DNA of 64,000 nt, from positions 3,348,001 through 3,412,000 of the forward strand of contig NC_018014.1 of assembly GCF_000265425.1 (NCBI RefSeq), in the 5' to 3' direction. The notes beneath the pieces were generated by a model. The model saw nothing but the letters and a program-made list of their open reading frames with translations, was not told where the DNA came from and searched no databases. The stretch comes from Terriglobus roseus DSM 18391 (lineage in GTDB: Bacteria > Acidobacteriota > Terriglobia > Terriglobales > Acidobacteriaceae). Numbering within the stretch: position 1 is the first letter of the stretch; the number at the start of each line of letters is the position of its first letter. The position numbers and the translations under genes were made by a program. Positions 16,656 through 49,377 of this stretch are shown here, piece by piece.

Positions 16656-16671
16656 TGGCAGCCAACTTGCT
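16656..16671 (+). promoter_or_regulatory. Sigma-54 promoter upstream of the first exopolysaccharide genes
   Basis: TGGCAG-N5-TTGCT with the GG and GC dinucleotides exactly ten bases apart, matching the -24/-12 consensus (TGGCAC-N5-TTGCW) except at one position. The predicted start of transcription is near 16682. The next gene starts at 16961, leaving a long leader. Confidence 0.65.
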
Positions 16672-16681
16672 TCTTGATCCC

Positions 16682-16960
16682 GCGTGACTTACAGCATTTT
16701 CCGATCGGGCGGGGAGAAATAAGACTTAGTGTGAACGCCGATCAGTGCCATTGCGTGGTCTGATCGTTTGCGGCGATGCATACTGAGTACATTCCATGAG
16801 TTCAGCGCAGAGATTCCGGGTGATCAGTACCCCGTTTGTAGAATCGTGCCAAAGAGCAGCCTCGGCTGCTGGTCGCTGCTTTGCGCCTTGCGAAGGCGCG
16901 CTCGTTGATCGGGAATCCGCGTTTCGACATCATGCCGATCCTGAGGCCAGACACTAGGCC
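16682..16960 (+). other. Structured 279-base leader with no convincing gene
   Basis: No supported coding frame. Three perfect inverted repeats occur: CGATCAG...CTGATCG (16739-16766), AGCAGC-CTCG-GCTGCT (16855-16870) and GCGCCTT-GCG-AAGGCGC (16883-16899). It lies between the predicted sigma-54 start point and the acetyltransferase-like gene. It may be a regulatory leader or contain a small RNA. Confidence 0.4.
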
Positions 16961-18061
16961 ATGCTTCCGACGACAGCGAGTATCCGCGGTATTTCTACGC
17001 GAGTGGATGATGCATGGCGTGCAGTGGAGGCAGATACCCTCCGCTCCGGTACACTTTTGCCGCTGTGGCATCGCGCGGCGTGGGCGGCGACTCAGCCGCA
17101 GAATTCCTCTTTCCTTGTCGATGTACCAACACCCACTGGTCCGAAGACATCGGTGGTGGTGCAGCGGGATAGCAGCCGCAGCCTGCCCGGCCACGTGTTG
17201 CTGCGCGTGCAGCGTTTCGGTCACGGCTGGCCGACAGACACTTGGGAGTCGACGATCCGTCAACTCTCTGAGATTGCACGATCTGACAAGAGCGTCCTGC
17301 GCCTGAACCTGGAGATCTTTCTTCGGGGTGATCAGGAGTCGATGCGGGAGATCCTGCGGGCAAAGGGTTTCGTACCGGCACCGCCGCGCAGCTATCACCA
17401 CACGTTGACGCTGCCGGTCGATCAGTCGGACGAGGTCCTGCTGTCAACGCGGAAGTCGTTGCGCAAGCGTTTGCGCGATGGGGAGAAGTTTGGCGTGGTG
17501 GTTCGTGCACTGACCGACACCCAGTTCGCAGGGGCGCTGACGGCATTGCAGCAGAAGGCCATGGAGCGGAGTGGAGGAAGTTTCCGCATACCCGACTGGC
17601 CGGCGATCCTGAAGTTTTCCGTTGAGAATCCGGCGCTTTCGCGCGTGATTGGTCTATTTCCCTCGGCCGAAGAAGTTGAGGCGCAGAACATGCTGGGCTT
17701 CGCGTGGGGATGCATGCACGGCGACCATGCGGAGTACCGTGCGGCGGGATCGGCTGACCTACGCCCGGAGCACCGCAGTCTCTCGATCAGCCACCCGCTG
17801 CTGTGGGATCTGGTTCGGTGGACACGCGACAGCGGCGGGACCTGGTTCGATATGGGTGGCGTTACGGTGAGCGAGGGCGGAGACGATCCTTTGGCGGGTA
17901 TCTCTGCGACCAAACGGATCCTGAGCGACACCGTGGAAGAAGTCGGTGAGGAGTGGATGCTGGAACCGCAGGTGTGGAAGAGCCGGCTGGCAAAGAGCCT
18001 TGGCAGCCTGGCAGGCAAGGCTGCGTCACTGGCCAGGCCGCGAACGGGGAGCGCCCGATGA
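16961..18061 (+). CDS. FemAB/GNAT-like acyltransferase of the exopolysaccharide locus
   Basis: 366 residues without signal peptide or membrane helices. The pattern resembles FemAB-related GNAT proteins common in exosortase/exopolysaccharide loci: an N-terminal half with WHRAAWAATQ, a central basic stretch STRKSLRKRLRDGEKFGV that fits the ordered double-GNAT linker, and a C-terminal SISHPLLWDLVRWTRDSGG followed by FDMGGVTVSEGGDDPLAGI. Such enzymes transfer acyl or aminoacyl groups to sugar or peptide precursors. The stop overlaps the next glycosyltransferase start (ATGA), so they are cotranscribed and presumably decorate the same polymer. Confidence 0.65.
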   Translation: MLPTTASIRGISTRVDDAWRAVEADTLRSGTLLPLWHRAAWAATQPQNSSFLVDVPTPTGPKTSVVVQRDSSRSLPGHVLLRVQRFGHGWPTDTWESTIRQLSEIARSDKSVLRLNLEIFLRGDQESMREILRAKGFVPAPPRSYHHTLTLPVDQSDEVLLSTRKSLRKRLRDGEKFGVVVRALTDTQFAGALTALQQKAMERSGGSFRIPDWPAILKFSVENPALSRVIGLFPSAEEVEAQNMLGFAWGCMHGDHAEYRAAGSADLRPEHRSLSISHPLLWDLVRWTRDSGGTWFDMGGVTVSEGGDDPLAGISATKRILSDTVEEVGEEWMLEPQVWKSRLAKSLGSLAGKAASLARPRTGSAR

Positions 18062-19122
18062 GCGGACAACTGGTGAGCATCCTGGTACCGACGTACAACC
18101 GTGCGGATTGCCTGCTGGAGACGCTTGATTGCGTGCTCGCGCAAACGCACAAGGACTGGGAACTCATCCTCATCGATGACGGCTCGACCGACGGGACAGG
18201 CGACCTGGTGGCAGCTCACTTCCACGGCGACACCCGGTTGCGTTACATCTACCAGCAGAACGCCGGCGTTTCGCACGCGAGAAATACGGGATTACGCGCA
18301 GCCAAGGGCGACTTCATTACGTTCCTGGATTCTGACGATCTTTGGATGCCCTGGAAGCTGGAGGCACAGCTCGCCTGCATGGCCGCACGGCCAGAGGTCG
18401 GCATGGTGTGGACGGACATGGAAGCCATCGATCACGAGGGCCATCTGCTGGAATCCAGGCACCTGCGCACGATGTATAGCGCCTATCGCTATCACCACAT
18501 GGAGACGCTGTTCGAAGGCAATCTGCCTGCAGCCGCTGTACCAGGGATGCCTGCGGCAGCGTACCAGCAGGAGACGCCCGTGCGCCTCTACTTTGGGGAC
18601 ATCTTCGCGCCGATGATCCTTGGCAGCCTGGTGCACACGTCGACTGTGATGCTGCGGCGGGAGCGTGCCCTGCTTGTTGCTGGCTTCGACGAGACACTCA
18701 AGCGCTCGGGTGAGGATTATGACTTCCACTTGCGCACCTGCAAGGAAGGCCCGGTCGCGCTACTGGACGCGCCTGCCATTCGGTACCGTAAGGGCCGAGC
18801 GGATCGCCTGACCCGCCACACGGACGCCAGCGCGATCAACTTTCTGGCTACCGTTGAAAAGGCAGTGGCAAGCGATACGGAAGGCCGCCTGCGCAAGCAG
18901 GATGTGGAGCTGGTACGGCGCGAGGCGAATGAGTGGATCGCTGAAGAGAAGTTCAAGCTGCGCGATGGCCGAGGTGTTCGTCAACACGTGTTCCGGGCGC
19001 TCCGGCGCAATCCGCGGAAGCGCCGTCTGGTCGTTCTGGTGGTGTTGAGTTACATCCCGCCGGCGTTGCTCGACCTGGTGCTGCGGAGCTATCGCTCCGC
19101 AAAGGCCAAACTGCGAGGCTAA
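18058..19122 (+). CDS. Glycosyltransferase family 2
   Basis: 354 residues starting at the ATG inside the ATGA overlap. The GT-A fold is clear: VSILVPTYNRADCLLETL, DDGSTDGT (nucleotide site), SHARNTGLRAAKGDFITFLD and the DxD-like DSDD that binds metal and sugar nucleotide. A family-2 acceptor region follows with HTSTVMLRRERALLVAGFDE and GEDYDFHLR. An insertion of about 40 residues (LPAAAVPGMPAAAYQQ region) sits before the acceptor motif. There are no membrane helices, so it is a cytoplasmic or peripheral enzyme adding a sugar to the lipid-linked repeat unit. Donor and linkage are unknown. Confidence 0.88.
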   Translation: MSGQLVSILVPTYNRADCLLETLDCVLAQTHKDWELILIDDGSTDGTGDLVAAHFHGDTRLRYIYQQNAGVSHARNTGLRAAKGDFITFLDSDDLWMPWKLEAQLACMAARPEVGMVWTDMEAIDHEGHLLESRHLRTMYSAYRYHHMETLFEGNLPAAAVPGMPAAAYQQETPVRLYFGDIFAPMILGSLVHTSTVMLRRERALLVAGFDETLKRSGEDYDFHLRTCKEGPVALLDAPAIRYRKGRADRLTRHTDASAINFLATVEKAVASDTEGRLRKQDVELVRREANEWIAEEKFKLRDGRGVRQHVFRALRRNPRKRRLVVLVVLSYIPPALLDLVLRSYRSAKAKLRG

Positions 19123-19165
19123 ATTCGCTGGTAATTGCCGGGTTCTGTCGTATGCTGGCCAACAG

Positions 19166-27550: not shown

Positions 27551-27566
27551 TGGCCACTTGATTGCA
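27551..27566 (+). promoter_or_regulatory. Sigma-54 promoter of the PEP-CTERM gene
   Basis: TGGCCA-N5-TTGCA with exact GG-N10-GC spacing. The predicted start is near 27577, giving a 20-base leader that contains AAGAGG six bases before ATG 27597. The geometry of promoter, leader and start codon is self-consistent. Confidence 0.7.
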
Positions 27567-27596: not shown

Positions 27597-28367
27597 ATGC
27601 GTAATCCCGCCTTGATCACCGCAGTACTATTCATCGCCGTCGGCGGTTGTGCGGAGAGCATCTCCAATTCGCCGGAGTGCGAGCGGTGGATTGCCGATTA
27701 CAGCCATAAGCTGGCCGAGTCGCAGCCGGTTCAGGAGATCACCCGGCAGAAGCGGACGATTAAGCAGTATGTCCACCGCACGATTGGTACAGTAAGTCCA
27801 AAGCCAAAGATGGTGCGGACGGTATCCCCGATCGATCCGCTGCGCCCGGGACTGACGCCGAAGCAGATGATGCGCCGTTTCCAGGTGCTGTGTGGCGATC
27901 TGCCGCCGGTTGCCACGGCCATGTTGCTTCCGCCCGTGACGCCTCCCGCACCGGCCACGCCTGCGATGATCCCCGGCACGTTTGTACCGAGTACCCCTGC
28001 TTCCACTCCCCCCCTGACACCAGCGACACCAGGTAGCCCGATTATTCCTGGTGGGACCGGCCCCGGTTCGCCGACCAACCCAGGTGGCGGCATACCGCCG
28101 ACTCCCTCTACGCCTACTACTCCGACGACTCCTACCACTCCGACGACACCCACTACACCCACTACGCCGACGACACCCACGACGCCGACGACCCCGACGA
28201 CGCCAACCACTCCTACGGAGCCCACTCCGCCTGAGTTGCCCCCGACGACTCCGCCGGAGGGTCCGCCCGCACCGCCGGTGCCCGAGCCTGCGACGTTGAC
28301 GCTGATGCTGTCTGGTTCATTGGTCGCAATCGGTTACGCCGTCCGCCGTAGAGCCCTAACCGCGTAA
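27597..28367 (+). CDS. PEP-CTERM exosortase substrate with Thr-Pro-Thr repeat stalk
   Basis: 256 residues. The N terminus (LITAVLFIAVGGC) is a signal segment that also resembles a lipobox. A short folded-looking region (residues 25-110) has cysteines and basic residues. Residues 110-225 are almost entirely Pro, Thr, Gly and Ser, including a run of PTT triplets (169-207). The C terminus is a textbook PEP-CTERM sorting signal: VPEPATLTLML, a hydrophobic helix, then three arginines. Exosortase would cut at the PEP motif and release or attach the protein at the cell surface, where the Thr-rich stalk may be glycosylated. The exosortase gene is in this window at 33477. Confidence 0.92.
   Translation: MRNPALITAVLFIAVGGCAESISNSPECERWIADYSHKLAESQPVQEITRQKRTIKQYVHRTIGTVSPKPKMVRTVSPIDPLRPGLTPKQMMRRFQVLCGDLPPVATAMLLPPVTPPAPATPAMIPGTFVPSTPASTPPLTPATPGSPIIPGGTGPGSPTNPGGGIPPTPSTPTTPTTPTTPTTPTTPTTPTTPTTPTTPTTPTTPTEPTPPELPPTTPPEGPPAPPVPEPATLTLMLSGSLVAIGYAVRRRALTA
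28101..28217 (+). repeat. Nine-base degenerate repeat encoding (Thr-Pro-Thr)n
   Basis: Thirty-nine codons of TPT-type repeat (residues 169-207 of the PEP-CTERM protein). Third positions vary between copies (ACT, ACG, ACC, ACA; CCG, CCC, CCT, CCA), so the peptide pattern is maintained while the DNA has diverged. It forms an extended stalk. Confidence 0.85.
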
Positions 28368-28518: not shown

Positions 28519-28532
28519 TGCAGAGATTTGCA
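28519..28532. promoter_or_regulatory. Candidate activator site upstream of the mini-protein promoter
   Basis: TGCAGAGATTTGCA fits TGCAA-N4-TTGCA with one mismatch. It begins 52 bases before the GG of the downstream sigma-54 promoter. The same motif occurs perfectly at 34424 and 49573. Confidence 0.35.
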
Positions 28533-28569: not shown

Positions 28570-28585
28570 TGGTCACGCAAGTGCA
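28570..28585 (+). promoter_or_regulatory. Sigma-54 promoter of the mini-protein gene
   Basis: TGGTCA-N5-GTGCA with exact GG-N10-GC spacing. Both elements deviate by one base from consensus. The predicted first transcribed base (about 28596) coincides with the base of a perfect ten-base-pair hairpin, which independently supports the assignment. Confidence 0.6.
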
Positions 28586-28627: not shown

Positions 28628-28870
28628 ATGTTGAATAAATGGACGATGGCCGTAACGCTCGCAACTTGCTCGATCGCACCTGCTGTCGCACAGCAGCATG
28701 TCCGTTCGGCTGTTACGGCACCGGCAGTCGCAGTACGTTCTGCCAATCCAATGACGAGTGAGACCAGTGCAGTCTTCTCTCGCAATCCTGAGTTTGGCAT
28801 GCTGCTTTGCCTTGGCGCTGTCTTTGTTGGATCTGCAGCTCTCTTCTCGGCGCGTCGCTCCGAGCTGTAA
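28628..28870 (+). CDS. 80-residue exported protein with a PEP-CTERM-like tail
   Basis: Start at ATG 28628, with GGAG six to seven bases upstream. Residues 1-21 are a signal peptide (SIAPAVAQ). The mature part is only about 58 residues: a Val/Ala/Thr-rich linker, then NPEFGMLLCLGAVFVGSAALFSARR, which is broken here as NPEF, helix (residues 57-74) and Arg-Arg at 76-77. The order 'short PE-containing motif, helix, arginines' copies a PEP-CTERM signal, though the motif is NPEF rather than PEP. It is next to the true PEP-CTERM gene and has its own sigma-54 promoter match. A miniature exosortase substrate is the best guess; a plain small membrane protein is the alternative. Confidence 0.65.
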   Translation: MLNKWTMAVTLATCSIAPAVAQQHVRSAVTAPAVAVRSANPMTSETSAVFSRNPEFGMLLCLGAVFVGSAALFSARRSEL

Positions 28871-30488: not shown

Positions 30489-32783
30489 TTAGATGCCTTT
30501 ACCGGAGAGTTTTGCCAGGGATTGCTGCGCCTGGAGGGAGAGTGGAGTGCCGGGCGCGAGGGTGGCCACGCGGTTGAGGTGGACGGCGGCTTCGGCCTGT
30601 CGGCCGAGCGAGGCCAGGACGACACCGAGGTGGTACTGAACGGAGGCGTCCGAGTCGTCGAGCGCTGCGGCCTCCTGGAGGGGTTGAAGGCCGGAGGCGG
30701 GCAGGCCTTTGCGGTAGTAGATCCAGCCAAGAGCGTCTGCGGCGGCGACGGATGCCGGCCGGGCACGGTAGGCGGCCTGAGCGGTGGAGAGGGCGACGTC
30801 GAGATTGCCGCCGGCCTCCGCGGTCAGGGCCGCGATGCTGGCGGAGACTTCGGGCTGGTCGGCCTTGAGATTCAGTGACTTGCGATAGAAGTCGAGCGCT
30901 GCCTTGTTGTCTCCAGAGGACTCGTACAACATGCCGAGGGCGGCGGGTGCCTGGGGATCGGTGGGGTGTGCTGCGGCCCAGCGGTTCCAGAGATCGACCG
31001 CGGGCGCCAGTTGGCCAGTGCCGAGGATTACGCTTGTGAAGGTCTGGGCGGCGCTGCGGTTGTCGGGGTCGAGTTCGGTGGCGCGCTTTGCACTCGCTAG
31101 GGCTGAGGATGTGTCCGCGGCGGCGAGCTGCGCCTGTGCGAGCTGGTCGTAGAGTTCGGCGGAGGCGGGCGCGCGCTGGAGCTGCTGCCGAACACGCTGG
31201 ACGGCGGCGGCGGGCTGATGGGCGCGGACGTCGAGGGTTGTGAGTTCGGCGATGGCGGCGGGATCGGGCGAGAGCTGGAGCGCGTGTTCGAAGGCTTCCC
31301 TCGCCTTTGCTGCATTTCCCTGGGCAGCCTGCGCGCGGCCGAGTTGGACCAGCGCGAAGCCGTTGGCTGGCTTGAGCTTGAGGGCCATTTCGAGGTCGGC
31401 GATGGCGGCTGCGCTGGCATTGGACTGGAGGTTTGCGACGCCTCGCCAGAGATAGCCGTCGGCGAGATTGGGGTGGGCGAGGAGCATCTGCCGCGCGGAC
31501 TCTTTCATGTCGGCGGCGTCGCCGCGGCGGTAGGCGAGGTCGGCCAGGCCGGACTGGGCTTCGAGGTTGGAGCGGTCGCTGCGCAGGACTTTGCGGTAGG
31601 TGTCTGCGGCCTTCTGCTGGTCGCCGAGGCGGTCCTGCGCCCTTGCGAGGAGAATGCCGAGGTCGACGCTGTCAGGCTCGTTCTTGCTGGCGGTTTGCAG
31701 CAGTTGCAGGGCGGCTTCGTTCTTGCCGTCGTGCATGAGGAGGTAGGCGTTGAGGAGGATTACGCCGGGGTCGGTCTCGTGCTGCTGGACGAGGTCCTCG
31801 ATCATGGGGCGGGCGCGGTCGAGGCTGCCGGCGTCGATGAGGACTCGGATATAAGTGAGCTTCAGGGAGAGGCTGCCCGGGTGACGCTGGACGAGCGCGG
31901 CGTAGGTCTGCTGCGCCTGGGCCGTGTTGCCGGTTTCTTTGTAGAAGCGCTCGAGAAGGGGCGCGGCGGCTGGGTCGTTTGAGAGGTCGTCGGTTGCCTT
32001 TTGCAGGGTGGCTTCGGCCTTGGCGCGGTCGCCGGCATGGATGTAGAGGGCGGCGAGGTCAGCGCGGGCTGGGACGCTCTGCGGGACGAGGAGGATGGCT
32101 TCCTGCATCTGCTGCTCTGCGCCCTTGATGTCGCCTCGGCGTTCGAGGATACTTGCGAGACTGAAGCGGGCGCTTACGTCTTTTGAATTGAGCAGGATGG
32201 CCTGTTGAAGTTCACGCATTGCTTCGGGCTGTTTTGAGGGGTCGGCTGCGAGGAGCTGGCCGAGGGCAGTGTGGAAGTCTGCACGGTTTGGTGCGAGGGC
32301 TAGTGCTGCCTGGATTGCCTGCATGGCGGCGGACCGGTTGCCGGAGGCTGCGGAAGAGGCGGAGAGAAGGGCTTGGGCGTCTGCGTTGGTTGGCTGCTTG
32401 TAGACGACCCAGCGAGCCTGCGCGGCTGCGGCTTCGGTCTGGCCGGTCTGCAGGAGGAGCCTTCCGACGTCGACGCGGGCGTTCATGTTGGCGGGCGCGA
32501 GTTGAAGGACCTGGCCGAGTTCGTAGATGGCGAGCTGGATGGAGCCGCTCTCCTGGTAGGCCTTGCTGAGTTCGTAGTGGCCGTCAACGGAAGAGGCGTT
32601 GAGGCGGATCGCGTTCGAGAACTGGATGGCGGCTTCGCGCGGTTTGCCTTCGCGCTCGTACTGGCGACCGCTCTCCATGTAGGCGAGTTCACGGCTCTTT
32701 GCGCTACGGCAGCCGCCCAGGAGCGACAGCGATAACAGCAGAGCTGCGGCGGCGCTTCTTCGGCTTGTACGTGCGATCGGCAG
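30489..32783 (-). CDS. TPR-repeat lipoprotein of the exosortase system (PrsT-like), probable CTG start
   Basis: The first ATG in frame (32678) would miss the export signal. The frame stays open upstream, and residues encoded at 32679-32783 read RRSAAAALLLSLSLLGGC then RSAKSRE: a clear lipoprotein signal with LGGC lipobox. No ATG, GTG or TTG is available there; CTG at 32783 has GAGG seven bases upstream, giving 764 residues. The rest is about 20 tetratricopeptide repeats (for example REAAIQFSNAIRLNASSVDG). PrsT proteins of this design accompany exosortase loci and probably scaffold envelope assembly. EpsI and exosortase genes lie directly upstream. Confidence 0.8.
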   Translation of the reverse strand: MPIARTSRRSAAAALLLSLSLLGGCRSAKSRELAYMESGRQYEREGKPREAAIQFSNAIRLNASSVDGHYELSKAYQESGSIQLAIYELGQVLQLAPANMNARVDVGRLLLQTGQTEAAAAQARWVVYKQPTNADAQALLSASSAASGNRSAAMQAIQAALALAPNRADFHTALGQLLAADPSKQPEAMRELQQAILLNSKDVSARFSLASILERRGDIKGAEQQMQEAILLVPQSVPARADLAALYIHAGDRAKAEATLQKATDDLSNDPAAAPLLERFYKETGNTAQAQQTYAALVQRHPGSLSLKLTYIRVLIDAGSLDRARPMIEDLVQQHETDPGVILLNAYLLMHDGKNEAALQLLQTASKNEPDSVDLGILLARAQDRLGDQQKAADTYRKVLRSDRSNLEAQSGLADLAYRRGDAADMKESARQMLLAHPNLADGYLWRGVANLQSNASAAAIADLEMALKLKPANGFALVQLGRAQAAQGNAAKAREAFEHALQLSPDPAAIAELTTLDVRAHQPAAAVQRVRQQLQRAPASAELYDQLAQAQLAAADTSSALASAKRATELDPDNRSAAQTFTSVILGTGQLAPAVDLWNRWAAAHPTDPQAPAALGMLYESSGDNKAALDFYRKSLNLKADQPEVSASIAALTAEAGGNLDVALSTAQAAYRARPASVAAADALGWIYYRKGLPASGLQPLQEAAALDDSDASVQYHLGVVLASLGRQAEAAVHLNRVATLAPGTPLSLQAQQSLAKLSGKGI

Positions 32784-34469: not shown

Positions 34470-34485
34470 TGGCATTCGCATTGCT
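34470..34485 (+). promoter_or_regulatory. Sigma-54 promoter of the main export/assembly operon
   Basis: TGGCAT-N5-TTGCT, one base from consensus, GG-N10-GC exact. Predicted start near 34496. The leader then contains TGCGC...GCGCA (34497-34517), a small hairpin just before the AGGA ribosome site of the export gene at 34527, echoing the 5' hairpin at 28595. Confidence 0.78.
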
Positions 34486-34526: not shown

Positions 34527-35153
34527 ATGAAGTATTTTCACTTTCTGCCGTGCATTTCGCTTTCCATCGCTGTTGGCCTAGCCACAGCGCAGCAGGTCCA
34601 ACCCGTGGTACCGGCGCGTCCGCATGACGCAGCGGTGGCCCCCGTCACAAGCGCTGCGGTCGTTGTTCCTCCTGCGGGCTACCGCATCGGGAACGAGGAT
34701 GCGCTGCAGGTCAGCGTCTGGAAAGAGCCGACGCTGTCCGGTCCTTTGCCGGTTCGGCCGGACGGGATGATCTCGCTGCCGCTGGTTGGCGATATCGCCG
34801 CTGCTGGCAAGACGCCGCAGGAACTGTCGGAGGCGATCCAGGACCGGCTGAAGAAGTACATCCAGGATCCGCTGGTGACCGTAGTGGTTACGGCTGCGAA
34901 CAGCCAGAAGATCTACGTGCTGGGCGAGGTGCTACACGTGGGCCAGGTACCGCTGACAAACGGGCTTTCCGTATTGCAGGCGATTGCCGCCTCGGGCGGG
35001 CTTACCGCCTACGCCAATGCAAAGAAGATGTATATTCTGCGGACCGAAGCTGGTAAGCAGGTCAAGATCCCCTTTGACTACCGGAAGGTCGTCAAGGGCG
35101 AGGGTGGCCCACCCCCTTCGCTGCTGGCCGGCGACACGATCGTGGTGCCGTAG
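34527..35153 (+). CDS. Polysaccharide export outer-membrane protein (Wza/EpsE-like, SLBB domain)
   Basis: 208 residues with a signal peptide (residues 1-21, ending ATAQ). The Poly_export domain covers about residues 50-130 (YRIGNEDALQVSVWKEP, then VRPDGMISLPLVGDI). One SLBB domain follows (KIYVLGEVLHVGQVPLTNG, ASGGLTAYANAKKMYILR). It is much shorter than E. coli Wza (about 380), as is usual for exosortase-associated export proteins. It lines or organises the outer-membrane exit channel. It is the first gene of a tightly packed operon running to 42329, and its stop overlaps the next start by one base. Confidence 0.9.
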   Translation: MKYFHFLPCISLSIAVGLATAQQVQPVVPARPHDAAVAPVTSAAVVVPPAGYRIGNEDALQVSVWKEPTLSGPLPVRPDGMISLPLVGDIAAAGKTPQELSEAIQDRLKKYIQDPLVTVVVTAANSQKIYVLGEVLHVGQVPLTNGLSVLQAIAASGGLTAYANAKKMYILRTEAGKQVKIPFDYRKVVKGEGGPPPSLLAGDTIVVP

Positions 35154-36457
35154 TGATAAAGACCACGATGCTTCTTCCCACAATTCTTTCCCTTACCTGT
35201 GTGACCGCGATGCACGCACAGGCGGCACCGAGCGTTACGCCCACGATCTCTGCTCCTGGTACCGTGCCGAGCCTTTCCACAGCTCCCATTGCCGGCGAGT
35301 TCTCGTACTCGCTGACGGGATCCGAGTCGTACGTCACGGGCTACCAGGGCACTTCGAACTCAGGATCCTCTACCAACATTTCGGGCCAGGCGACGTATGT
35401 CTCGAACAGCGAGACGCATCCCCTGAGCCTGATCTACTCCGGCGGTTACTTCTTCGGGAATGGCGGCGACCTGAACTCGTCTTCGTATCAGAACGTTGGC
35501 GTGTCTCAGCTTTTGATTTCGCGCCGCTGGCGACTGGGCATTGCGGATACGATCACGTTCCTGCCGTCGTCGCCGCTGTACGGCGTCTCCGGTGTTCCCT
35601 TCTCGGGCGATATCGGCACGACGCCGATCACGACGGGCGGAATCCCGACGCAGTCGATCCTGACGAACTATGGCCAGCAGGTGAGCAACACGGTCAGCGG
35701 CAGTGTCTCCCGTGACATTACGGGCAAGACGTTTGTCGAAGGTTTCGGTTCGTACACCGTGCAGCGTTTTTTGCAGACGGGTCTGAACAACAACAGCGTG
35801 GGTGCTTCCGCTTCGCTGGGTCACCACTTCAGCGCGCGGGACACGGTGTCGGGCAGCTACACGTATGCGAAGTACAGCTTCTCGACGCCCGTCTCCGGCT
35901 TCAACAACTTTGCTTTTTCGTCGAACGGCGTCAGCGCGAGCTACAGCCACGCATTCAATCGCAAGCTGAGTCTGCAACTGTCGGCGGGTCCGCAGTGGAT
36001 CAGCAGCAATCAGCCGGCGCTGATCCCGGATCGCGTCCTGTTCGCGAGCGCTGTTTCGATCGGCTACCAGGGCGAGCGGACGCGCACGACCATCAGTTAC
36101 AACCGGTCGCCGAACATTGGATCGGGCGTATTGCTGGGCGCGCTTTCGGACAATATCAACGTGACAGCGCAGCGTAACTTCTCGCGTAACTGGACGGGCG
36201 GCATCACGGCGAACTATGGCCGCGCCTCCGGCCTGGCGGCAGTGCCGGGAGAGAACATCCAGACCAAGAGTTTTTATGGCGGCGTGCAGGCGACGCGGCG
36301 ACTGGGTGAGAACTTCTCCGCCTTCGGTAGTTACAGTGCAGCCACGCAGTCTTCATCCGGCCAGGCAATCGCCCGCAACGCTTTTGATGGGACGGCTCAC
36401 ATTGTGACGGTTGGCCTTACCTTTGCGCCGCGCTCCATGCGCTTCGGCCGTCCCTAA
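35153..36457 (+). CDS. Outer-membrane beta-barrel protein of the exopolysaccharide operon
   Basis: 434 residues from GTG 35153 (ATG 35168 is an alternative), with a signal peptide of about 22 residues. The remainder shows alternating polar and hydrophobic residues with frequent Tyr, Phe, Ser and Thr, for example TVSGSYTYAKYSFSTPV and GVSASYSHAFNRKLSLQLSA, as expected for 14 or more beta strands. Barrel proteins at this operon position are typical of exosortase loci and may form the porin for the polymer together with the export protein. No catalytic motifs are seen. Confidence 0.75.
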   Translation: MIKTTMLLPTILSLTCVTAMHAQAAPSVTPTISAPGTVPSLSTAPIAGEFSYSLTGSESYVTGYQGTSNSGSSTNISGQATYVSNSETHPLSLIYSGGYFFGNGGDLNSSSYQNVGVSQLLISRRWRLGIADTITFLPSSPLYGVSGVPFSGDIGTTPITTGGIPTQSILTNYGQQVSNTVSGSVSRDITGKTFVEGFGSYTVQRFLQTGLNNNSVGASASLGHHFSARDTVSGSYTYAKYSFSTPVSGFNNFAFSSNGVSASYSHAFNRKLSLQLSAGPQWISSNQPALIPDRVLFASAVSIGYQGERTRTTISYNRSPNIGSGVLLGALSDNINVTAQRNFSRNWTGGITANYGRASGLAAVPGENIQTKSFYGGVQATRRLGENFSAFGSYSAATQSSSGQAIARNAFDGTAHIVTVGLTFAPRSMRFGRP

Positions 36458-36466
36458 GGAAACAGA

Positions 36467-37978
36467 ATGCTTGGACATCGCCCCCTGAAGTTGGAAGATT
36501 ACGTAGCGATCGTGAAGCGTCGCGCGCTGTTGATTGCAGCGCCGGCGATTCTTCTGCCGATCCTTGCGTTGTTGGTCTCTGCGACGATCCCGCCGCAGTT
36601 CGTATCGCAGACGCTGGTGCTGATCGAACAGCAGAAGGTGCCGGATGAGTATGTGAAGCCGGTGGTTTCATCGGACCTGGATCAGCGGCTGGCCTCGATG
36701 AAGGAGCAGATCCTGAGCCGCTCGCGTATTGAGCCGATCATTCAGCGGTTCAATCTGTTCCCGGGCGCGACCGCTGACGATCGTCTGGACCATGTACGGA
36801 AGAACATCGAGATCAAGCCGATCAAGTCAGAGATTGCTGGTGCGGGTGCTCTGCCGGGCTTCTTCATCTCGTACCGCGCATCCGATGCGCACACGGCACA
36901 GCAGGTGTGCGGTGAGATCACCTCGCTGTTTGTGAATGAGAACCTGCGTGCTCGGGAACAGTCGGCGCAGGGCACAACTTCATTCATTGAGAGCCAGCTT
37001 GCAACAGCGAAGGCCAATCTGGATCAACAGGATGCAAAGCTCGCAGATTTCCAGCGTAAGTTCATTGGCCGGCTGCCGGGTGAAGAGAACACGAACCTGA
37101 ACATGTTGAACAGTGTGAACTCGCAGCTGGCGGCGGCGACGCAGGCGTTGTCACAGTTACAGCAGCAGAAGGCTTACCAGGAATCGATGCTGACGCAGAT
37201 GACGCATGACGTGTCGCTGACTGCGCCGGTCGCGAGCAAAGCCGCACCGGATGAGCGTCAGACACAGTTGAATGCATTGCAGGCACAGGCAGATGACCTG
37301 AGCACGCGTTACACGCCGGACTATCCCGATTTGATCGCGGTGCGCCGCAAGATTGCGGATTTGCGCCGCGAGATCGGCCGGTCCCCTGCTTCGGCAGCGA
37401 GCGCGGCGGGACGTGTTGCGGACCCGGCGGGTGTGCAGCAGCTTCGTGCACAGATCCAGGCGACGAACCAGGGCATCAGCGCGAAGCAGTCGGAACAGGC
37501 ACAGTTGCAGGGCGCGATCAATGGCTACCAGGGACGCCTGCAGGCTTCGCCACAGGTGGAAGAACAGTACAAGGCACTGACCCGCGATTATCAGACCGCA
37601 CAGAAGTTTTATGACGAACTGCTGGCGAAGATGAACCAGTCCAAGATGGCGACGGACCTGGAGCATCGTCAGCAGGGCGAGCAGTTCCGCGTGATGGATG
37701 AGCCGAATCTGCCGAACAGCCCGGAGTATCCGAAGCGCAGCCGCTTCCTGCTGGTTGGATTGGCAGCGGGACTGTTGCTGGGTCTTGGCGTGTCGGCTCT
37801 GCTGGAGTATCGCGATACCGCAATCCAAACGGAAGACGATGTCTTTGCTTTTACAAAGCTGCCCACGCTTGCCGTCATCGCGCGGTCCGATAGTGCCGCG
37901 GATGCGGACGAGGTGAAGATCCCCGCGTGGAAGTTCTGGATTAATCAGAATGCCCCGTTGCCGGAAAAGAGGGGCTGA
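36467..37978 (+). CDS. Wzc/GumC-like chain-length determinant (polysaccharide co-polymerase)
   Basis: 503 residues with AAGGA upstream of the ATG. A Wzz-type N terminus (LKLEDYVAIVKRRALLI), the first membrane helix at about residues 20-42, a long periplasmic region with coiled-coil heptads (residues 160-400, e.g. FIESQLATAKANLDQQDAKL), and a second helix (FLLVGLAAGLLLGLGVSALL) before a short cytoplasmic tail. The kinase domain is separate and encoded two genes downstream. It sets chain length and links the inner membrane machinery to export. It matches the chain-length protein of exosortase-type loci. Confidence 0.9.
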   Translation: MLGHRPLKLEDYVAIVKRRALLIAAPAILLPILALLVSATIPPQFVSQTLVLIEQQKVPDEYVKPVVSSDLDQRLASMKEQILSRSRIEPIIQRFNLFPGATADDRLDHVRKNIEIKPIKSEIAGAGALPGFFISYRASDAHTAQQVCGEITSLFVNENLRAREQSAQGTTSFIESQLATAKANLDQQDAKLADFQRKFIGRLPGEENTNLNMLNSVNSQLAAATQALSQLQQQKAYQESMLTQMTHDVSLTAPVASKAAPDERQTQLNALQAQADDLSTRYTPDYPDLIAVRRKIADLRREIGRSPASAASAAGRVADPAGVQQLRAQIQATNQGISAKQSEQAQLQGAINGYQGRLQASPQVEEQYKALTRDYQTAQKFYDELLAKMNQSKMATDLEHRQQGEQFRVMDEPNLPNSPEYPKRSRFLLVGLAAGLLLGLGVSALLEYRDTAIQTEDDVFAFTKLPTLAVIARSDSAADADEVKIPAWKFWINQNAPLPEKRG

Positions 37979-37981
37979 CGC

Positions 37982-38881
37982 ATGTATCGCGATTTCTTTC
38001 AGCTTGAGAAGTTTCCGTTCAATAACAACCCGGACCCCAGCTTTCTTTGCATGTTGCCGCATGCGCGCGAAGCGCTCGCCTGCCTGGAGTATGGCGTCGC
38101 TGCGCGCAAGGGTTTCCTTGTGTTGCTGGGCGAAGTTGGTACGGGTAAGACGACGCTGCTGCGTAGTGCGTTGAATACGCTGCGTGGCACGGCGGTGCAC
38201 ACGTCGTTCATCTTTAATCCGCGGCTGGAGACACTGGAATTTCTGCAGTTCATGCTGTCGGACTTCGGCCTGACTCCTGTCAACGATACGAAGGCCGGGA
38301 TGCTGCTGCAGTTGAATCGCTGGCTTGTGGAGCGGTTCGCTGCAGGCGATACGTGCGTGCTGATTGTGGATGAGGCGCAGTCGCTTTCGTCGGAGTTGCT
38401 GGAAGAGATCCGGTTGTTGACGAACCTGGAGACGGACACGCAGAAGCTGTTGCAGATTGTGCTGTCTGGTCAGCCGGAGTTGGAGACGAAGCTGCGCGAG
38501 CCGGGTCTGCGGCAGTTGCGGCAACGCATCTCGCTGTGGTGCAGGACGCAGGCGTTGTCGCAGGAACAGACGGGCGAGTATATCGAGCAGCGCCTATCGA
38601 TTGCGGGCGCGAAGGAAACGATCTTTCTGCCGGACACGATCAAGACGATCTATGAGTTCAGCCGCGGTATTCCCCGCCTGGTGAACCTGCTGTGCGAACA
38701 CTCGTTGATTCTGGCCTATGTAGAGAAGCTGAAGCAGGTACCGGCATCGCTGGTGTTTGCGGTTGCTGTGGATCTGGATCTGGATAATGGACTGGGGGCC
38801 GCGGCAGGGATTACTGCCGGGTCAAGGCGTAGCGAAGTGCCTGTGGTGGCTTCATCGCCCGAAGGAAAGGGGCGCGAATGA
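37982..38881 (+). CDS. ExeA-like AAA ATPase of the exosortase/exopolysaccharide locus
   Basis: 299 residues. It starts YRDFFQLEKFPFNNNPDPSF, the signature beginning of the ExeA/GspA-like ATPases found in exosortase loci. Walker A is LLGEVGTGKTTLL and Walker B VLIVDEAQSL. There is no peptidoglycan-binding domain. It is cytoplasmic and probably energises or regulates assembly of the export complex. The last codons overlap the start of the tyrosine kinase (ATGA). Confidence 0.88.
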   Translation: MYRDFFQLEKFPFNNNPDPSFLCMLPHAREALACLEYGVAARKGFLVLLGEVGTGKTTLLRSALNTLRGTAVHTSFIFNPRLETLEFLQFMLSDFGLTPVNDTKAGMLLQLNRWLVERFAAGDTCVLIVDEAQSLSSELLEEIRLLTNLETDTQKLLQIVLSGQPELETKLREPGLRQLRQRISLWCRTQALSQEQTGEYIEQRLSIAGAKETIFLPDTIKTIYEFSRGIPRLVNLLCEHSLILAYVEKLKQVPASLVFAVAVDLDLDNGLGAAAGITAGSRRSEVPVVASSPEGKGRE

Positions 38882-39813
38882 GCAAGATTTATGAGGCGCT
38901 GCTGCGTGCGGAGTTAGAGCGACTTACTCCGGAAGAGCAGGCAGAGTACGAGCGCGATCCCGAATCGTTTCCGAGCATTGCTTCCATCCTGGGACGCGCG
39001 CAGGAGCCGTCGGCTATCGACTCGCTGCGCGAAGAAGCGAACGTGGTGCGCGAGCACAATCGTGCGTTGCGTGAACTGGGTGAGGTTAAGCGGACGACGT
39101 GGAGTCCTGATCTGGAGAAGCTGCCGGCGCTACAGAGTCGCAGTGCGTTCACGGAGCAGTTCCGCAGCCTGCGTTCGCGGCTCTATGAGTATCGCGGCTT
39201 CAACAAGCTGAAGACGATCCTGGTGAGCAGCGGCATGCCGAAGGAAGGCAAGACGTTTGTGGCCGCGAACCTTGCGCTGAGCCTGGCGCGGTACAAGAAC
39301 AATCGCGTTCTGCTGATCGACGCGGATTTGCGCCGTAACTCGCTGCATACGTTACTGGGTTGTTCTGCATCGCCGGGTCTGTCGACTTACCTGACCGGCA
39401 ATGCGACGGCGCTTGAAGTGATGCAGCGGTCTGACCTGGAGCCGGATCCGAATGCCGAGCATCCGCCGGTGTTGAACAACATCACGTTTATCGCGGGTGG
39501 CGCGGGCGGTGAAGCTGCGGCTGATCTTTCCGGCAACTCGCGCTTTGCCGAGTTGATTCGCTATGTGTCGCCGCACTTCGACTGGATCATCGTCGACTCA
39601 TCGCCGGTGAATGTTGTTTCGGACGCAGTGAATCTGGCACCGGCTTGCGATGGTGTTTTGCTGGTAGTTCGTGGCGGTCAGACGCCGTACGAGAGTGCAC
39701 AGCGCGCGCAGAAGGAATTCGCTACGGCCAATCTGCTGGGCGTTGTTTTGAACGGTGTTGTGGATGTGCCGCACCAGGCCTACTACGGGTATGGAACGGA
39801 GCCCGAGAAGTAA
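38878..39813 (+). CDS. CpsD/Wzc-type tyrosine autokinase
   Basis: 311 residues. The BY-kinase motifs are Walker A ILVSSGMPKEGKTFVAANLA, Walker A' VLLIDADLRRNSLH and Walker B DWIIVDSSPVNVV. The C terminus (HQAYYGYGTEPEK) has only a few tyrosines, fewer than classical Wzc tails but still available for phosphorylation. The N-terminal 80 residues are acidic and helical. It should work with the chain-length protein two genes upstream, cycling phosphorylation to control polymerisation. It abuts the sugar transferase gene without a gap. Confidence 0.9.
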   Translation: MSKIYEALLRAELERLTPEEQAEYERDPESFPSIASILGRAQEPSAIDSLREEANVVREHNRALRELGEVKRTTWSPDLEKLPALQSRSAFTEQFRSLRSRLYEYRGFNKLKTILVSSGMPKEGKTFVAANLALSLARYKNNRVLLIDADLRRNSLHTLLGCSASPGLSTYLTGNATALEVMQRSDLEPDPNAEHPPVLNNITFIAGGAGGEAAADLSGNSRFAELIRYVSPHFDWIIVDSSPVNVVSDAVNLAPACDGVLLVVRGGQTPYESAQRAQKEFATANLLGVVLNGVVDVPHQAYYGYGTEPEK

Positions 39814-41178
39814 ATGATCCGGTTCCTGAACGTCTACTACCCCACACGCTCGGTGCTTCAGTTATTGTCTGAGGCTTTCATCATCTGCTGCTGCTACCTG
39901 GCGGCGGCGGGACTGGTGCTGCGTTCCGACACGGTTAAGGTTCTGACGTATGAGCATAACCTGGCGAAGGTGTTTGGGCTGACGCTGGTCACTGTTGCTA
40001 TTGCCTACTACTGCGATCTGTATGAACCGCAGATGATCTCAGGGCCTGGTGAAACCCACTTCCGCATCCTGCTGGTGCTGGGGCTTGTCAGCTTTCTGGC
40101 GTCGGCGGTGCTGTATCTGTTCCCTTCGTTCGGGATTGCGCGTTACATCACTTCGGCCGGAATCATCCTGATTGCCGTTGCGCTGATCGTCTGGCGGCAG
40201 GTCTTTGAGTGGATGCAGGAACGGGAGATGTTCCGCGAGCGCGTGGTGATCTTTGGCAGTGGCACGTATGCGCAGGGATTGGCAAACCTGATCAATAGCC
40301 GCCGCGATGTTGGCATGGAACTGCTGCGACCGATGGACGCGGATGGAAATCCGTTGAGCGCAGGCGCGATCGTCGATTGGATCGAGGCCTATCCAGAGCC
40401 GATTCATCGCATTATTGTTGCGATGGAAGATCGTCGTGGCGGGCTGCCTGTGGATGAGTTGCTGGCGGTTCGTTTTCGCGGGATCCAGGTGGAAGAGGCG
40501 AGTGCGCTGTTTGAGCGGCTCTCCGGCAAGATTGAGTTGAGCAGTTTGCGGCCCAGTAGCTTTTTGTACAGCGAAGGCTTCCGGATTCAGCCGTCGCAAC
40601 TGGTGACCCGGCGACTTGCCTCCGTGCTGGCCGCGGGTCTGGGACTTCTGACGTTCGCTCCCTTCTTTCCGCTGGTCGCACTGCTGGTCAAACTGACCTC
40701 GCCCGGTCCTCTCTTCTTCAAGCAGATACGGGTTGGCGAGGGAGGAAAGCCGTTCAACGTGTACAAGTTTCGCAGCATGCGGACGGATGCGGAGAAGGGT
40801 GGCGCGCGCTTTGCGAGCAAGAACGATCCTCGCGTGACGAAGATCGGCATGTTCATGCGGAAGACGCGCATCGACGAAGTGCCGCAGCTATGGAATGTGC
40901 TGCGCGGTGACATGGGTTTTGTGGGACCGCGGCCTGAGCGGCCGGAGTTTGTGCCGTGGCTTGCGGAGCAGTTGCCGTACTACAATTTGCGGCACCTGAT
41001 TCGTCCGGGGCTGACTGGCTGGGCGCAGGTTCGCTACGGCTATGGCGCGACGCTGGAAGAGAGCCGCGAGAAGCTGCAGTACGACCTCTACTATGTGAAG
41101 CACTCATCCCTGGGGCTTGATCTGCTGATCATGTTCGAGACGATCAAGATCATTCTGCGTCGCCGGGGAGCTCAGTGA
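39814..41178 (+). CDS. Priming polyprenyl-phosphate sugar-1-phosphate transferase (WbaP/WcaJ type)
   Basis: 454 residues. Four N-terminal helices, a CoA-binding-like cytoplasmic domain (VVIFGSGTYAQGLANLI), a fifth helix (around residues 265-290), and the catalytic bacterial sugar transferase domain: LTSPGPLFFKQIRVGEGGKP, NVYKFRSMRTDAE, KTRIDEVPQLWNVLRGDM, GFVGPRPERPEFV and RPGLTGWAQVRYGYG. It links the first sugar phosphate to undecaprenyl phosphate to start each repeat unit. The architecture matches the transferase of exosortase loci. Its stop overlaps the next glycosyltransferase start. Confidence 0.94.
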   Translation: MIRFLNVYYPTRSVLQLLSEAFIICCCYLAAAGLVLRSDTVKVLTYEHNLAKVFGLTLVTVAIAYYCDLYEPQMISGPGETHFRILLVLGLVSFLASAVLYLFPSFGIARYITSAGIILIAVALIVWRQVFEWMQEREMFRERVVIFGSGTYAQGLANLINSRRDVGMELLRPMDADGNPLSAGAIVDWIEAYPEPIHRIIVAMEDRRGGLPVDELLAVRFRGIQVEEASALFERLSGKIELSSLRPSSFLYSEGFRIQPSQLVTRRLASVLAAGLGLLTFAPFFPLVALLVKLTSPGPLFFKQIRVGEGGKPFNVYKFRSMRTDAEKGGARFASKNDPRVTKIGMFMRKTRIDEVPQLWNVLRGDMGFVGPRPERPEFVPWLAEQLPYYNLRHLIRPGLTGWAQVRYGYGATLEESREKLQYDLYYVKHSSLGLDLLIMFETIKIILRRRGAQ

Positions 41179-42329
41179 GAACGCTGTTCTTCGTCTCGCT
41201 CGCGATGGTGGTCTACACCTACGCGGGCTATCCCCTGCTCATTGCACTGATGGCGCGACTGCGGCCCAAGCCGTGGATTCACGGAGGGGACACGCGTTCT
41301 GCGAGTGTGATTCTGCCGGTGCATAACGGGCTACGGTTGCTGCCGTGGAAGATTAACAGCCTGCTGGCGATGGACCCCGCTGTCATCAAAGAAGTCATCG
41401 TTGTGCTGGACGGCTGCACCGACGACTCCGCGGCATGGCTTGCGACGTTGAACGATCCGCGTCTTCGGCCGGTAGTGATGACGGAGCATGGGGGCAAGGC
41501 TGCTGCGCTGCGTCGCGGTATGTCTGTGGCGACCGCTGAGCTGTTGCTGTTCGTGGACATTCGTCCGGAGGTTACGGAGGAGTCGGTGCGGCAACTGTTT
41601 CAGAACTTTGCCGATCCTGCCGTGGGTTGCGCTGCGGGTGAGTTAAGGATTCGCGTGGATGCGGGCCACGCACAGGCAGCCTCTGCCGTGGGTGGACTGT
41701 ACTGGAAGTATGAGCAGTGGATCCGTAACTCGGAGGCTGCGTATGACTCGCCGGTGGGGGTCTATGGCGGCTTCTATGCGATTCGCCGTGAGCTGGCATG
41801 TGATCCGCCGAATGGTCTGATCCTGGACGATATGTTCCAGCCGCTGAACATCATCCGGCAGGGCTATCGCAGTGTGGTGGATCGCGAGGCGCTGGTCTAC
41901 GATCGTTGGCCGGCGACTGCGACCGGAGAGTTTCAGCGCAAGGTGCGTACGCTGGCCGGGAATTTTCAACTGGTTGCTGAGAATTCGTGGACGCTGTCTG
42001 CGAAGAACCGTGTGCTGTTCCAACTGATCTCGCACAAGCTGATGCGGCTGGTAGTTCCCTACTGCCTGCTGGCGATGCTTCTGAGTGCGGGCAGCCTTGC
42101 GATGCACTCCGCGGGATGGGCCTTCGTCGCGATCGCCGAGGCTGCGCTGCTGCTGGTTGCGTTGCTGGGACTTCGGATGCGCCTGCCGCTCGTCGGCAAG
42201 GTCTCAGCGGCGCTCAGCGCCCTGCTGTTGCTCAATGCGGCCGCCGTGCAGGCATTGTGGACATACGCATTCACGCGCGGGCCGCTCTGGAAGATATGGA
42301 ACGCGACAGCGATCCCGGACCAGCGCTAG
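41175..42329 (+). CDS. Membrane glycosyltransferase family 2
   Basis: 384 residues from GTG in the GTGA overlap. One helix at the N terminus, a GT-A catalytic domain (SVILPVHNGLRLLPWKINSL, VVLDGCTDDS, LLFVDIRPE in the metal-binding DxD position, and DDMFQPLNIIRQGYR in place of the usual EDxxL), and three to four C-terminal helices. The arrangement resembles processive or membrane-bound GT2 enzymes. It probably adds the second sugar after the priming transferase. It is the last gene of the export operon and overlaps the convergent GT4 gene by four bases. Confidence 0.87.
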   Translation: MRTLFFVSLAMVVYTYAGYPLLIALMARLRPKPWIHGGDTRSASVILPVHNGLRLLPWKINSLLAMDPAVIKEVIVVLDGCTDDSAAWLATLNDPRLRPVVMTEHGGKAAALRRGMSVATAELLLFVDIRPEVTEESVRQLFQNFADPAVGCAAGELRIRVDAGHAQAASAVGGLYWKYEQWIRNSEAAYDSPVGVYGGFYAIRRELACDPPNGLILDDMFQPLNIIRQGYRSVVDREALVYDRWPATATGEFQRKVRTLAGNFQLVAENSWTLSAKNRVLFQLISHKLMRLVVPYCLLAMLLSAGSLAMHSAGWAFVAIAEAALLLVALLGLRMRLPLVGKVSAALSALLLLNAAAVQALWTYAFTRGPLWKIWNATAIPDQR

Positions 42330-48274: not shown

Positions 48275-48289
48275 GGGAAATGAATCGAT

Positions 48290-49339
48290 TCAGTAGTTTG
48301 CAGCGCGCAGTGCGCTCGAAGGTATGGTGTGGACCTTGGACTGGTTGTCCTGGGCCGCACCGAAGTCGCTGAGCTTGTAGAGCAGCGACCGGTAGCTGAT
48401 GCTGAGCCACTTGGCGGTCTTCTGGCGGTTCCAGCCGTTTGCCTGCAGCACTTTGAGGATGATCTGGCGTTCCAGGTCCTGGGTGACCTGCCGGGTGATC
48501 TCTTTGAGTGCGACGGGGTGGCTGACGTCCACTTCATCGAGGGCCCAATTGCGTGTGACACCATTTCTGGAGTCCATGAGTTCGCGGGTGATGACCTCTT
48601 CCGAGCCCATGATGACGAAGTTGCGGAGCAGGTTATCCATCTGCCGGATGTTGCCGGGCCAGTAGTAGCCCTCCATCATCTGCAACACGTCCTGGGACAG
48701 CAGCGGCCGGGAACGCATGGCTTCACGGGAGTGCTTTTCCAGGAAGAACTCGACGAGGCCCAGGATATCTTCGGAACGTTCGCGCAGGGGCGGCAACATC
48801 ACCTTGACGGCGTTGATGCGGTAGAGGAGGTCGATGCGGAACTTTCCGGCATCGATCAGGCCCTGCAGATCGACCGTGGTGGTTGAGATGACGCGGACAA
48901 ATGTGCCACCGACAGAGCCCGTGTCGTACTGCTTGAGGACGATCAGGAGCTTGGACTGGGACGGAAGGTCGAGTTCGTGGATGCCATCGAGCAGGAGGGT
49001 GCCCCCCTCGCGAAGGAGCGTTGCGAGTTCGGACTCTACCGCGTCGCCTTCGAGGAGACCGTCGAGGAGGCTATCGAGCACGGAGGTAATTTCTTCCGGT
49101 GAGACACAGCTGAGCTTGGCAAGACGGCCCGGGTTGCGGGACTGGAGATGAAGCAGCTCTGCCACTACATCTTTTCCCGTCCCGCACTCTCCCTCGAGCA
49201 GCACGGGGAGGTCTGTCTGCGCCAAAAGCTCAAGATTCCGCCGGATCTGCTGCATGTGCAGGGTCCTGCCGAAAAATGAGCTCGCGAACGTAGACGAGGG
49301 CGAAAGAAATGGCCGCTTTGCGGGATTCAATAGTGTCAT
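48290..49339 (-). CDS. Degenerate NtrC-family AAA+ regulator without GAFTGA loop or receiver
   Basis: 349 residues. No receiver domain. Walker A is intact (GECGTGKD, 50-57). In place of the 'ELFGYEQGAFTGA' loop there is a divergent acidic stretch (residues 80-105), and the Walker B motif reads GTLLLDGIHEL, with Gly119 where the catalytic Glu should be. The Arg-finger region (LLYRINAVKVMLPPLRER) and a C-terminal Fis-type helix-turn-helix (LERQIILKVLQANGWNRQKT) remain. It should still bind DNA but probably cannot open sigma-54 holoenzyme by itself. It is divergent from the intact activator at 49679 and may antagonise or hetero-oligomerise with it. Confidence 0.88.
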   Translation of the reverse strand: MTLLNPAKRPFLSPSSTFASSFFGRTLHMQQIRRNLELLAQTDLPVLLEGECGTGKDVVAELLHLQSRNPGRLAKLSCVSPEEITSVLDSLLDGLLEGDAVESELATLLREGGTLLLDGIHELDLPSQSKLLIVLKQYDTGSVGGTFVRVISTTTVDLQGLIDAGKFRIDLLYRINAVKVMLPPLRERSEDILGLVEFFLEKHSREAMRSRPLLSQDVLQMMEGYYWPGNIRQMDNLLRNFVIMGSEEVITRELMDSRNGVTRNWALDEVDVSHPVALKEITRQVTQDLERQIILKVLQANGWNRQKTAKWLSISYRSLLYKLSDFGAAQDNQSKVHTIPSSALRAANY

Positions 49340-49361
49340 CGTTACTGCCTAAAAACTGTTG

Positions 49362-49377
49362 TGCACATGAACAGCCA
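49362..49377 (-). promoter_or_regulatory. Sigma-54 promoter of the degenerate regulator gene
   Basis: Read on the minus strand: TGGCTG-N5-GTGCA with exact GG-N10-GC spacing. The predicted start is near 49352, only about a dozen bases before ATG 49339. The same -12 variant (GTGCA) is seen at 28570. Confidence 0.55.

Follow-up and report, generated by a model that had tools for sequence, protein, structure and literature searches.

In proteobacteria, genes for PEP-CTERM proteins have been linked to the alternative sigma factor sigma-54, a form of control that has so far been predicted and partly tested in that group. Haft (2006; PMC1569441) described predicted sigma-54 sites and an upstream activator motif in front of proteobacterial PEP-CTERM genes, together with PrsK, PrsR and PrsT, and the pepA gene of Aquincola tertiaricarbonis has been reported to be RpoN dependent, with a determined transcription start (PMC9850573). 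In Burkholderia cenocepacia, the sigma-54 activator BerB drives the gene of a second regulator (BerA) for biofilm exopolysaccharide (PMC5552954), and a general link between sigma-54 and the cell exterior has been argued in PMC3162934. In our literature searches, Acidobacteria, PEP-CTERM and sigma-54 did not come together in any paper, nor did Terriglobus, exopolysaccharide and sigma-54; the combination of exosortase, sigma-54, exopolysaccharide and regulon gave a single paper, on Geobacter. Here, we analyzed a 64,000-nucleotide stretch of the soil acidobacterium Terriglobus roseus DSM 18391 (NC_018014.1, positions 3,348,001 to 3,412,000; hereafter the window), in which a first-pass annotation had proposed a sigma-54-controlled exosortase/exopolysaccharide locus. 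The locus probably represents a regulon in which sigma-54 controls exopolysaccharide and an exosortase-anchored protein, with one enhancer-binding protein (EBP1) as its driver and a second one (EBP2) proposed to provide feedback. The analysis defines promoters for the matrix of this bacterium and offers candidates for its operator and its regulators.

Like the PrsK/PrsR/PrsT system as described in PMC1569441, the T. roseus locus harbors an NtrC-type activator (EBP1; 49679..51145, plus strand), sigma-54 sites before PEP-CTERM genes, an exopolysaccharide neighborhood and a tetratricopeptide repeat (TPR) protein. An upstream activator motif is present in both, in the described system at 63 bp on average (range, 32 to 92). 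Unlike that system, however, the locus lacks an adjacent kinase, its activator has a degenerate receiver, the motif is a different one, and a DUF6982 (PF22478) protein is encoded directly behind EBP1 (51145..51603, plus strand; its start overlaps the EBP1 stop). Furthermore, a second EBP devoid of the GAFTGA loop (EBP2; 48290..49339, minus strand) stands under its own predicted sigma-54 promoter, the export operon itself carries a site, and only one PEP-CTERM gene of the genome scores above the cut-off. The A. tertiaricarbonis pepA is likewise a PEP-CTERM gene with an RpoN-type promoter, there at a mapped start and in a strain reported to have PrsK/PrsR (PMC9850573). The layout of BerB and BerA is similar to that deduced here from sequence for the two EBPs, in that an activator drives a regulator gene; BerB is reported to bind cyclic di-GMP (c-di-GMP) and BerA to respond to it (PMC5552954).

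The first-pass annotation had listed five -24/-12 sites. All five strings are present where it placed them, with GG-N10-GC spacing, the one on the minus strand spanning 49362-49377. We searched the strict pattern TGG[CT]N7[TG]TGC[AT] in 2.064 Mb of the genome, namely the window and another 100 stretches, each of 20 kb (together 39% of the genome), and compared it with the control spacings N7, N8, N9, N11, N12 and N13. The N10 spacing yielded 43 intergenic sites, 29 of them at most 400 bp upstream of a same-strand gene, whereas the controls yielded 18, 25, 25, 14, 17 and 27 intergenic sites and 9, 15, 13, 5, 6 and 12 upstream sites (mean for the latter, 10). N10 was the sole spacing to stand out against the control means (Poisson p 2e-5 for intergenic and 8e-7 for upstream sites). 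Within the window, six of the 11 strict matches fall inside called genes and the remaining five, all intergenic, are exactly those reported. The window holds 5 of the 43 intergenic sites against 1.2 expected from the rest of the sample (p 0.008). Similarly, the corresponding loci of 15 relatives contain 36 strict sites called intergenic, compared to 13, 17, 10, 11, 9 and 7 for the control spacings in the same order. Genes outside the window and in the relatives were called by a hexamer caller whose training set was this genome and which overlooked genes in some of the relatives; in the window it places only three of the five sites upstream of a gene, as it misses the 80-amino-acid gene at 28628 and takes a later start after 16656.

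Four of the five sites qualify as -24/-12 sites standing before genes beyond chance. The first, TGGCCACTTGATTGCA (27551..27566, plus strand), lies 30 bp before a gene encoding a 256-amino-acid PEP-CTERM protein (27597..28367, plus strand), the single TIGR02595 match above the cut-off in the genome; it reads TGGCCATCCGATTGCA in G005, the closest of the relatives found (87% identity in EBP1). The second, TGGTCACGCAAGTGCA (28570..28585, plus strand; TGGCTACGCAAGTGCA in G005), precedes a gene for an 80-amino-acid secreted-looking protein with a PEP-CTERM-like tail, NPEFGMLLCLGAVFVGSAALFSARRSEL (28628..28870, plus strand), which has no Pfam or NCBIfam match and an ortholog in G005 behind the conserved site. 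The third, TGGCATTCGCATTGCT (34470..34485, plus strand), heads the exopolysaccharide operon (34527..42329, plus strand), which encodes an export protein, a 434-amino-acid protein without family match, a chain-length protein, an ATPase, a tyrosine kinase, an EpsB sugar transferase and a family 2 glycosyltransferase (GT2). The fourth, TGGCTGTTCATGTGCA (49362..49377, minus strand), is the predicted promoter of EBP2, for which 49339 and 49255 are candidate starts. In the alignment with G005, these four sites persist as short islands amid diverged intergenic DNA.

The genome scoring suggested by the annotation was carried out on the 2.064 Mb with a weight matrix trained on 19 sites of relatives. 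The EBP2 site ranked 1st, although EBP2 promoters make up 11 of the 19 training sites and the matrix leans toward it, followed by 34470 (15th; 6th among intergenic sites), 27551 (21st; 9th) and 28570 (97th; 21st; score, 12.8). The fifth site, TGGCAGCCAACTTGCT (16656..16671, plus strand), came only 737th (107th among intergenic sites). It has no counterpart in G005 and lies 289 bp before the next open reading frame (16961; 17153 is the other candidate start of that gene). We therefore rejected it as probably a chance match, while spacing, intergenic position, proximity to a gene start and conservation make the other four look like genuine sigma-54 promoters.

The same arrangement is seen in relatives. 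A strict site precedes the export gene in four of the five relatives with this gene in view (G005, G002, G007 and G035, but not G006), with 38 to about 320 bp between it and the called start. At the EBP2 promoter, 11 of 15 relatives have a strict site and G006, G035, G024 and G022 a looser TGG-N9-TGC nearby. A strict site followed by a PEP-CTERM-tailed protein was found in G006, G002 and twice in G005 (one with an NPEF tail); the script showed no such protein behind a strict site in G007.

Three of the four accepted sites are preceded by the palindrome TGCAR-N4-YTGCA, a candidate activator site. It reads TGCAGAGATTTGCA at 28519..28532 (plus strand; TGCAGAGGTTTGCA in G005), 37 bp before the -24 element at 28570, and TGCAAACGATTGCA at 34424..34437 (plus strand), 32 bp before that at 34470. 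The third copy, TGCAATGCGTTGCA on the minus strand (TGCAAAACGTTGCA in G005), lies at 49573..49586, in the gap that separates EBP2 from EBP1 and 195 bp upstream of the -24 element of EBP2. G005 thus keeps two of the three copies. An imperfect TGCA-N6-TGCA stands before EBP2, at 215 bp, in G007 and G010, and G021 and G032 have the palindrome 95 and 80 bp before a site. With a spacer of 4, the 2.064 Mb contain 12 intergenic palindromes, compared to only 1 to 4 for each of the spacers 1-3 and 5-8. Four of these 12 lie within 260 bp upstream of a site, against none of the 18 with other spacers, an enrichment that in the window is partly circular because the motif was first noticed in these promoters. 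We then turned to the whole 5.23-Mb genome, where a palindrome followed by a site at 20 to 110 bp occurs in four places and a reversed-pattern control in none. All four precede exopolysaccharide or PEP-CTERM-type genes: two are 28570 and 34470, and two (1471234 and 1446646 in genome coordinates) belong to a second exopolysaccharide locus, where an export gene and an aminotransferase gene follow them. Across 61 genomes, the 20- to 50-bp form was matched 14 times, in 12 genomes, and the reversed control 4 times; the genes behind the former were inspected for T. roseus and G005, the other 11 matches being counted only.

EBP1 has all the hallmarks of a sigma-54-acting bacterial enhancer-binding protein: Walker A, GAFTGA, a Walker B with DE, and a Fis-type helix. 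It would bind the palindrome and switch on EBP2, the two PEP-CTERM-type genes and the export operon by opening their promoters, a proposal that is well supported by sequence. What feeds into EBP1 is suggested by its receiver, in which the acidic pair DD has become DP and the phospho-accepting aspartate a serine (PF00072, 18.5 bits against 30.2). Since both the adjacent kinase and the phospho-aspartate have been lost, EBP1 is probably not phosphorylated, and the DUF6982 protein would be its likeliest new input or partner.

This is in agreement with the distribution of the two genes among relatives. A histidine kinase, recognized by Pfam domains in two loci and by similarity in the others, precedes EBP1 in 19 of 30 loci. 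The acidic pair, the aspartate and the lysine of the receiver are intact in all 19 kinase loci read, and no DUF6982 gene was seen within 1.5 kb in any of them. Conversely, the eight kinase-less loci with a receiver region (six of this genus, G034 and G035) all carry DUF6982 directly after EBP1, and six of them have lost the phospho-aspartate. DUF6982 as such is present in 53 of 61 relatives and in two copies in nine, the second copy adjoining EBP1 in eight of these. We added 40 genomes, picked non-randomly and mainly from the top of a list of 149 matching ones, in which coordinates alone served to place kinase and DUF6982 and the kinase was recognized by its similarity, at E 1e-45, to a single kinase, so that divergent ones may be missed. 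A kinase was found in 21 (G116 and G221 also having DUF6982) and none in 19 (18 with DUF6982, the exception being G218). For the pooled analysis, G042 (cut by the contig end) and G051 and G043 (no receiver region) were dropped from the 30 loci, leaving 27. In the resulting 67 EBP1 loci, a kinase is adjacent in 40, and DUF6982 accompanies 2 of these 40 against 26 of the 27 kinase-less ones (Fisher 4e-15). The EBP2 GAFTGA loop follows the same divide, being intact in 9 of 9 kinase genomes but in only 1 of 7 kinase-less ones (G002; Fisher 0.0009), although both Fisher values overstate independence because kinase absence is clustered on the tree and reflects few events, not dozens. Indeed, it requires at least three changes on the tree (30 rows), the six members of this genus and G035 forming one supported side. 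The loop reads GAFNGA in G007 and G010 and is lost in G035, G006, G005 and T. roseus. This series of relatives, from kinase with intact receiver and EBP2, through both partners, to kinase-less loci with a mostly damaged EBP2 loop, can be read as a natural record of a change of input.

Taken one step further, the phosphorelay may have been dropped altogether, EBP1 becoming a pseudo-receiver protein read by DUF6982 and EBP2 losing its loop in step to become a dedicated repressor of the same promoters; we put this scenario forward tentatively and consider it possible rather than probable.

Several observations weigh against the proposed regulon and its input, besides the clustering on the tree and the circularity mentioned above. 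The matrix was trained with sites that include those of G005, a close kin of T. roseus. No palindrome was found upstream of 27551, the copy before 34470 is not conserved in G005, and of the nine intergenic palindromes of the 2.064 Mb that fall outside the window, only one has a site at most 260 bp downstream (p 0.15). EBP1 retains the receiver lysine, and with 46 kinase-like matches in the genome EBP1 may have a non-adjacent kinase. Finally, G034 and G035 carry DUF6982 yet retain the aspartate, and the association of kinase loss with DUF6982 is broken by G116 and G221, which have both, and by G218, which has neither.

EBP2 consists of an AAA+ domain and a Fis-type helix. It has no receiver, its GAFTGA loop is deleted and the Walker B DE has become DG, so that it does not qualify as a sigma-54-acting activator. 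Nevertheless, its helix (ISYRSLLYKL) is nearly that of EBP1 (ISYKALLYKI). Because EBP2 combines nearly the same recognition helix with the lack of the sigma-54-contacting loop, its most likely action would be to compete with EBP1 or to mix into it at the same sites. Being made from the best-matching sigma-54 promoter of the 2.064 Mb, it would thereby exert negative feedback; both this damping and the DUF6982 input are inferences from sequence. Alternatively, EBP2 could regulate sigma-70 promoters, positively or negatively, as reported for the NtrC proteins of Caulobacter and Rhodobacter that lack GAFTGA and act on such promoters (PMC10274813). That precedent likewise concerns a loop 1 deletion in an EBP that is still functional. 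However, the reported NtrC has a phosphorylated receiver, whereas EBP2 has none and adjoins an intact paralog; moreover, EBP2 and EBP1 have similar recognition helices and the palindromes found sit at sigma-54 promoters, which makes a sigma-70 role rather unlikely, if still worth considering. EBP2 might also be a decaying gene without a present role, as the loss of GAFTGA and of the Walker B glutamate in T. roseus would allow, and the helix is lost too in the G006 frame as read. But between T. roseus (G000) and G005, nonsynonymous divergence (dN) is as low for EBP2 (0.072) as for EBP1 (0.078), with synonymous divergence (dS) saturated for EBP2 and 1.39 for EBP1. The frame is open, and EBP2 is under purifying selection as judged from these sequences despite the loss of GAFTGA, with its sigma-54 promoter and DNA-binding helix retained, so that decay appears distinctly unlikely. 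Several kinase-type genomes show a further loose TGG-N9-TGC site some 460-590 bp ahead of the EBP2 frame, and G021, G023 and G027 have small minus-strand called genes between EBP2 and the kinase.

The first-pass annotation had named PrsR as the activator, which would imply ordinary PrsK/PrsR control as in proteobacteria. The neighborhood, the PrsT-like TPR protein (30489..32678, minus strand), the sigma-54 sites before PEP-CTERM genes and the upstream activator motif are all what Haft (2006) leads one to expect. In contrast, EBP1 reaches only 307.9 against a TIGR02915 cut-off of 502.6 and lacks a phospho-acceptor, and the TPR protein scores 251.9 against 312.2 for TIGR02917. No gene of the genome exceeds the cut-off for PrsK (TIGR02916; best 103.5 against 300). 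As no kinase adjoins EBP1 and the motif is TGCAR-N4-YTGCA rather than one ending in TTTACA, the identification with PrsR was dropped and control of this ordinary kind is very unlikely. A search of genome contigs with EBP1 gave no close ortholog among the matches listed, the best being 50% identical over part of the protein. That chance accounts for most of the -24/-12 matches and that other sigma factors serve the locus is the least probable explanation, highly improbable in our view, because the spacing controls, the conservation in G005, the EBP2 promoter across genera and the genome-wide palindrome pairs all speak against it, even though strict sites also fall inside genes (6 of 11 in the window and 151 of 194 in the 2.064 Mb) and 16656 behaves as chance would predict. 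The preferred reading remains that EBP1 drives these promoters with sigma-54.

The genome does contain rpoN, whose absence the annotation had named among the findings that would refute its proposal. A single PF04552 match (197.5 bits; 3305796-3306272 in genome coordinates, about 42 kb before the window) lies in an open frame of 548 amino acids. Together with the activator in the locus, it lends support to the proposal of a sigma-54-controlled exosortase/exopolysaccharide locus in an acidobacterium. The idea that the regulon is laid out in one locus did not hold, since a second exopolysaccharide locus (about 1446-1484 kb) and a third cluster (2025-2042 kb) also carry sites. In the second, six strict sites stand upstream of genes, and two of the four places where the genome combines palindrome and site are found there; its export, chain-length and sugar-dehydrogenase genes were identified by Pfam, whereas others are glycosyltransferase- or flippase-like by sequence look only. 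The third comprises export, ligase and glycosyltransferase genes, with three strict sites and no palindrome. By matrix score, the best 35 kb of these loci hold 12 and 9 sites compared to 6 here, so that both are denser. Several further strict sites lie within a few kilobases of EBP genes. The genome has 18 sigma-54-activator matches above the cut-off, the last three weak and three pairs of them 460.5 kb apart; two of the 18 are the divergent EBP1 and EBP2. The second-locus EBP has the helix ISYRTLLYKI, which shares with EBP1 and EBP2 the form ISY(K/R)xLLYK(I/L), whereas the four other readable EBP helices differ from it (five further EBPs were not read by the script). We thus propose, on the strength of these helices, that a sister regulon, whose EBP is of the same helix type, controls the second exopolysaccharide locus.

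Among the remaining genes of the locus, the exosortase (33477..34376, minus strand) scores 186.5 bits for TIGR02602, above the cut-off of 105.55, and narrowly misses the exosortase A model (TIGR03109, XrtA; 201.9 against 208). An EpsI-like partner is encoded next to it (32830..33480, minus strand); the two genes (32830-34376) share a 4-base overlap and correspond to the two halves of the fused XrtD/XrtW models. Since the genome has a single PEP-CTERM match, the model also missing the 80-amino-acid protein, there may be no more than one or two clients for the exosortase. A single PEP-CTERM protein over the cut-off makes this genome a simple test case. Three proteins of the locus (35153-36457, 43469-44545 and 26417-27466) have no Pfam match at E 0.01 and have orthologs in G005.

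The literature search gave no paper on DUF6982. We considered a PilZ domain for this protein, but its structural model was weak (mean predicted local distance difference test [pLDDT] score, 67.3; predicted template modeling [pTM] score, 0.55) and had no PDB match at E 0.001; the best 50 PDB matches listed for the model were mostly Sm/Hfq-like barrels, at E 0.05 or worse.

A further sigma-54-like, non-strict site (56334..56349, minus strand) stands 19 bp ahead of a gene for a secreted PCYCGC-family protein (55838-56314), behind which a GGDEF gene (54553-55707) follows. With a score of 14.2 this site exceeds 28570, and it has a divergent, equally non-strict partner at 56352 on the plus strand (score, 11.1); the pair was absent from the first-pass annotation. 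Its position beside a diguanylate cyclase gene makes a c-di-GMP link to the locus possible. A c-di-GMP input to EBP1, considered because of the GGDEF gene behind 56334, was set aside as no evidence for it was found.

Finally, matches in the region of about 2.32-2.72 Mb recur in 2.78-3.18 Mb at an offset of about 460.5 kb, and three pairs of 3.5-kb loci compared across it differ at 0 bases. These matches suggest that a large identical region is duplicated, either in the assembly or in the strain; such a duplication would explain why PMC5900883 notes T. roseus as having 13.79% CheckM contamination with identical markers.

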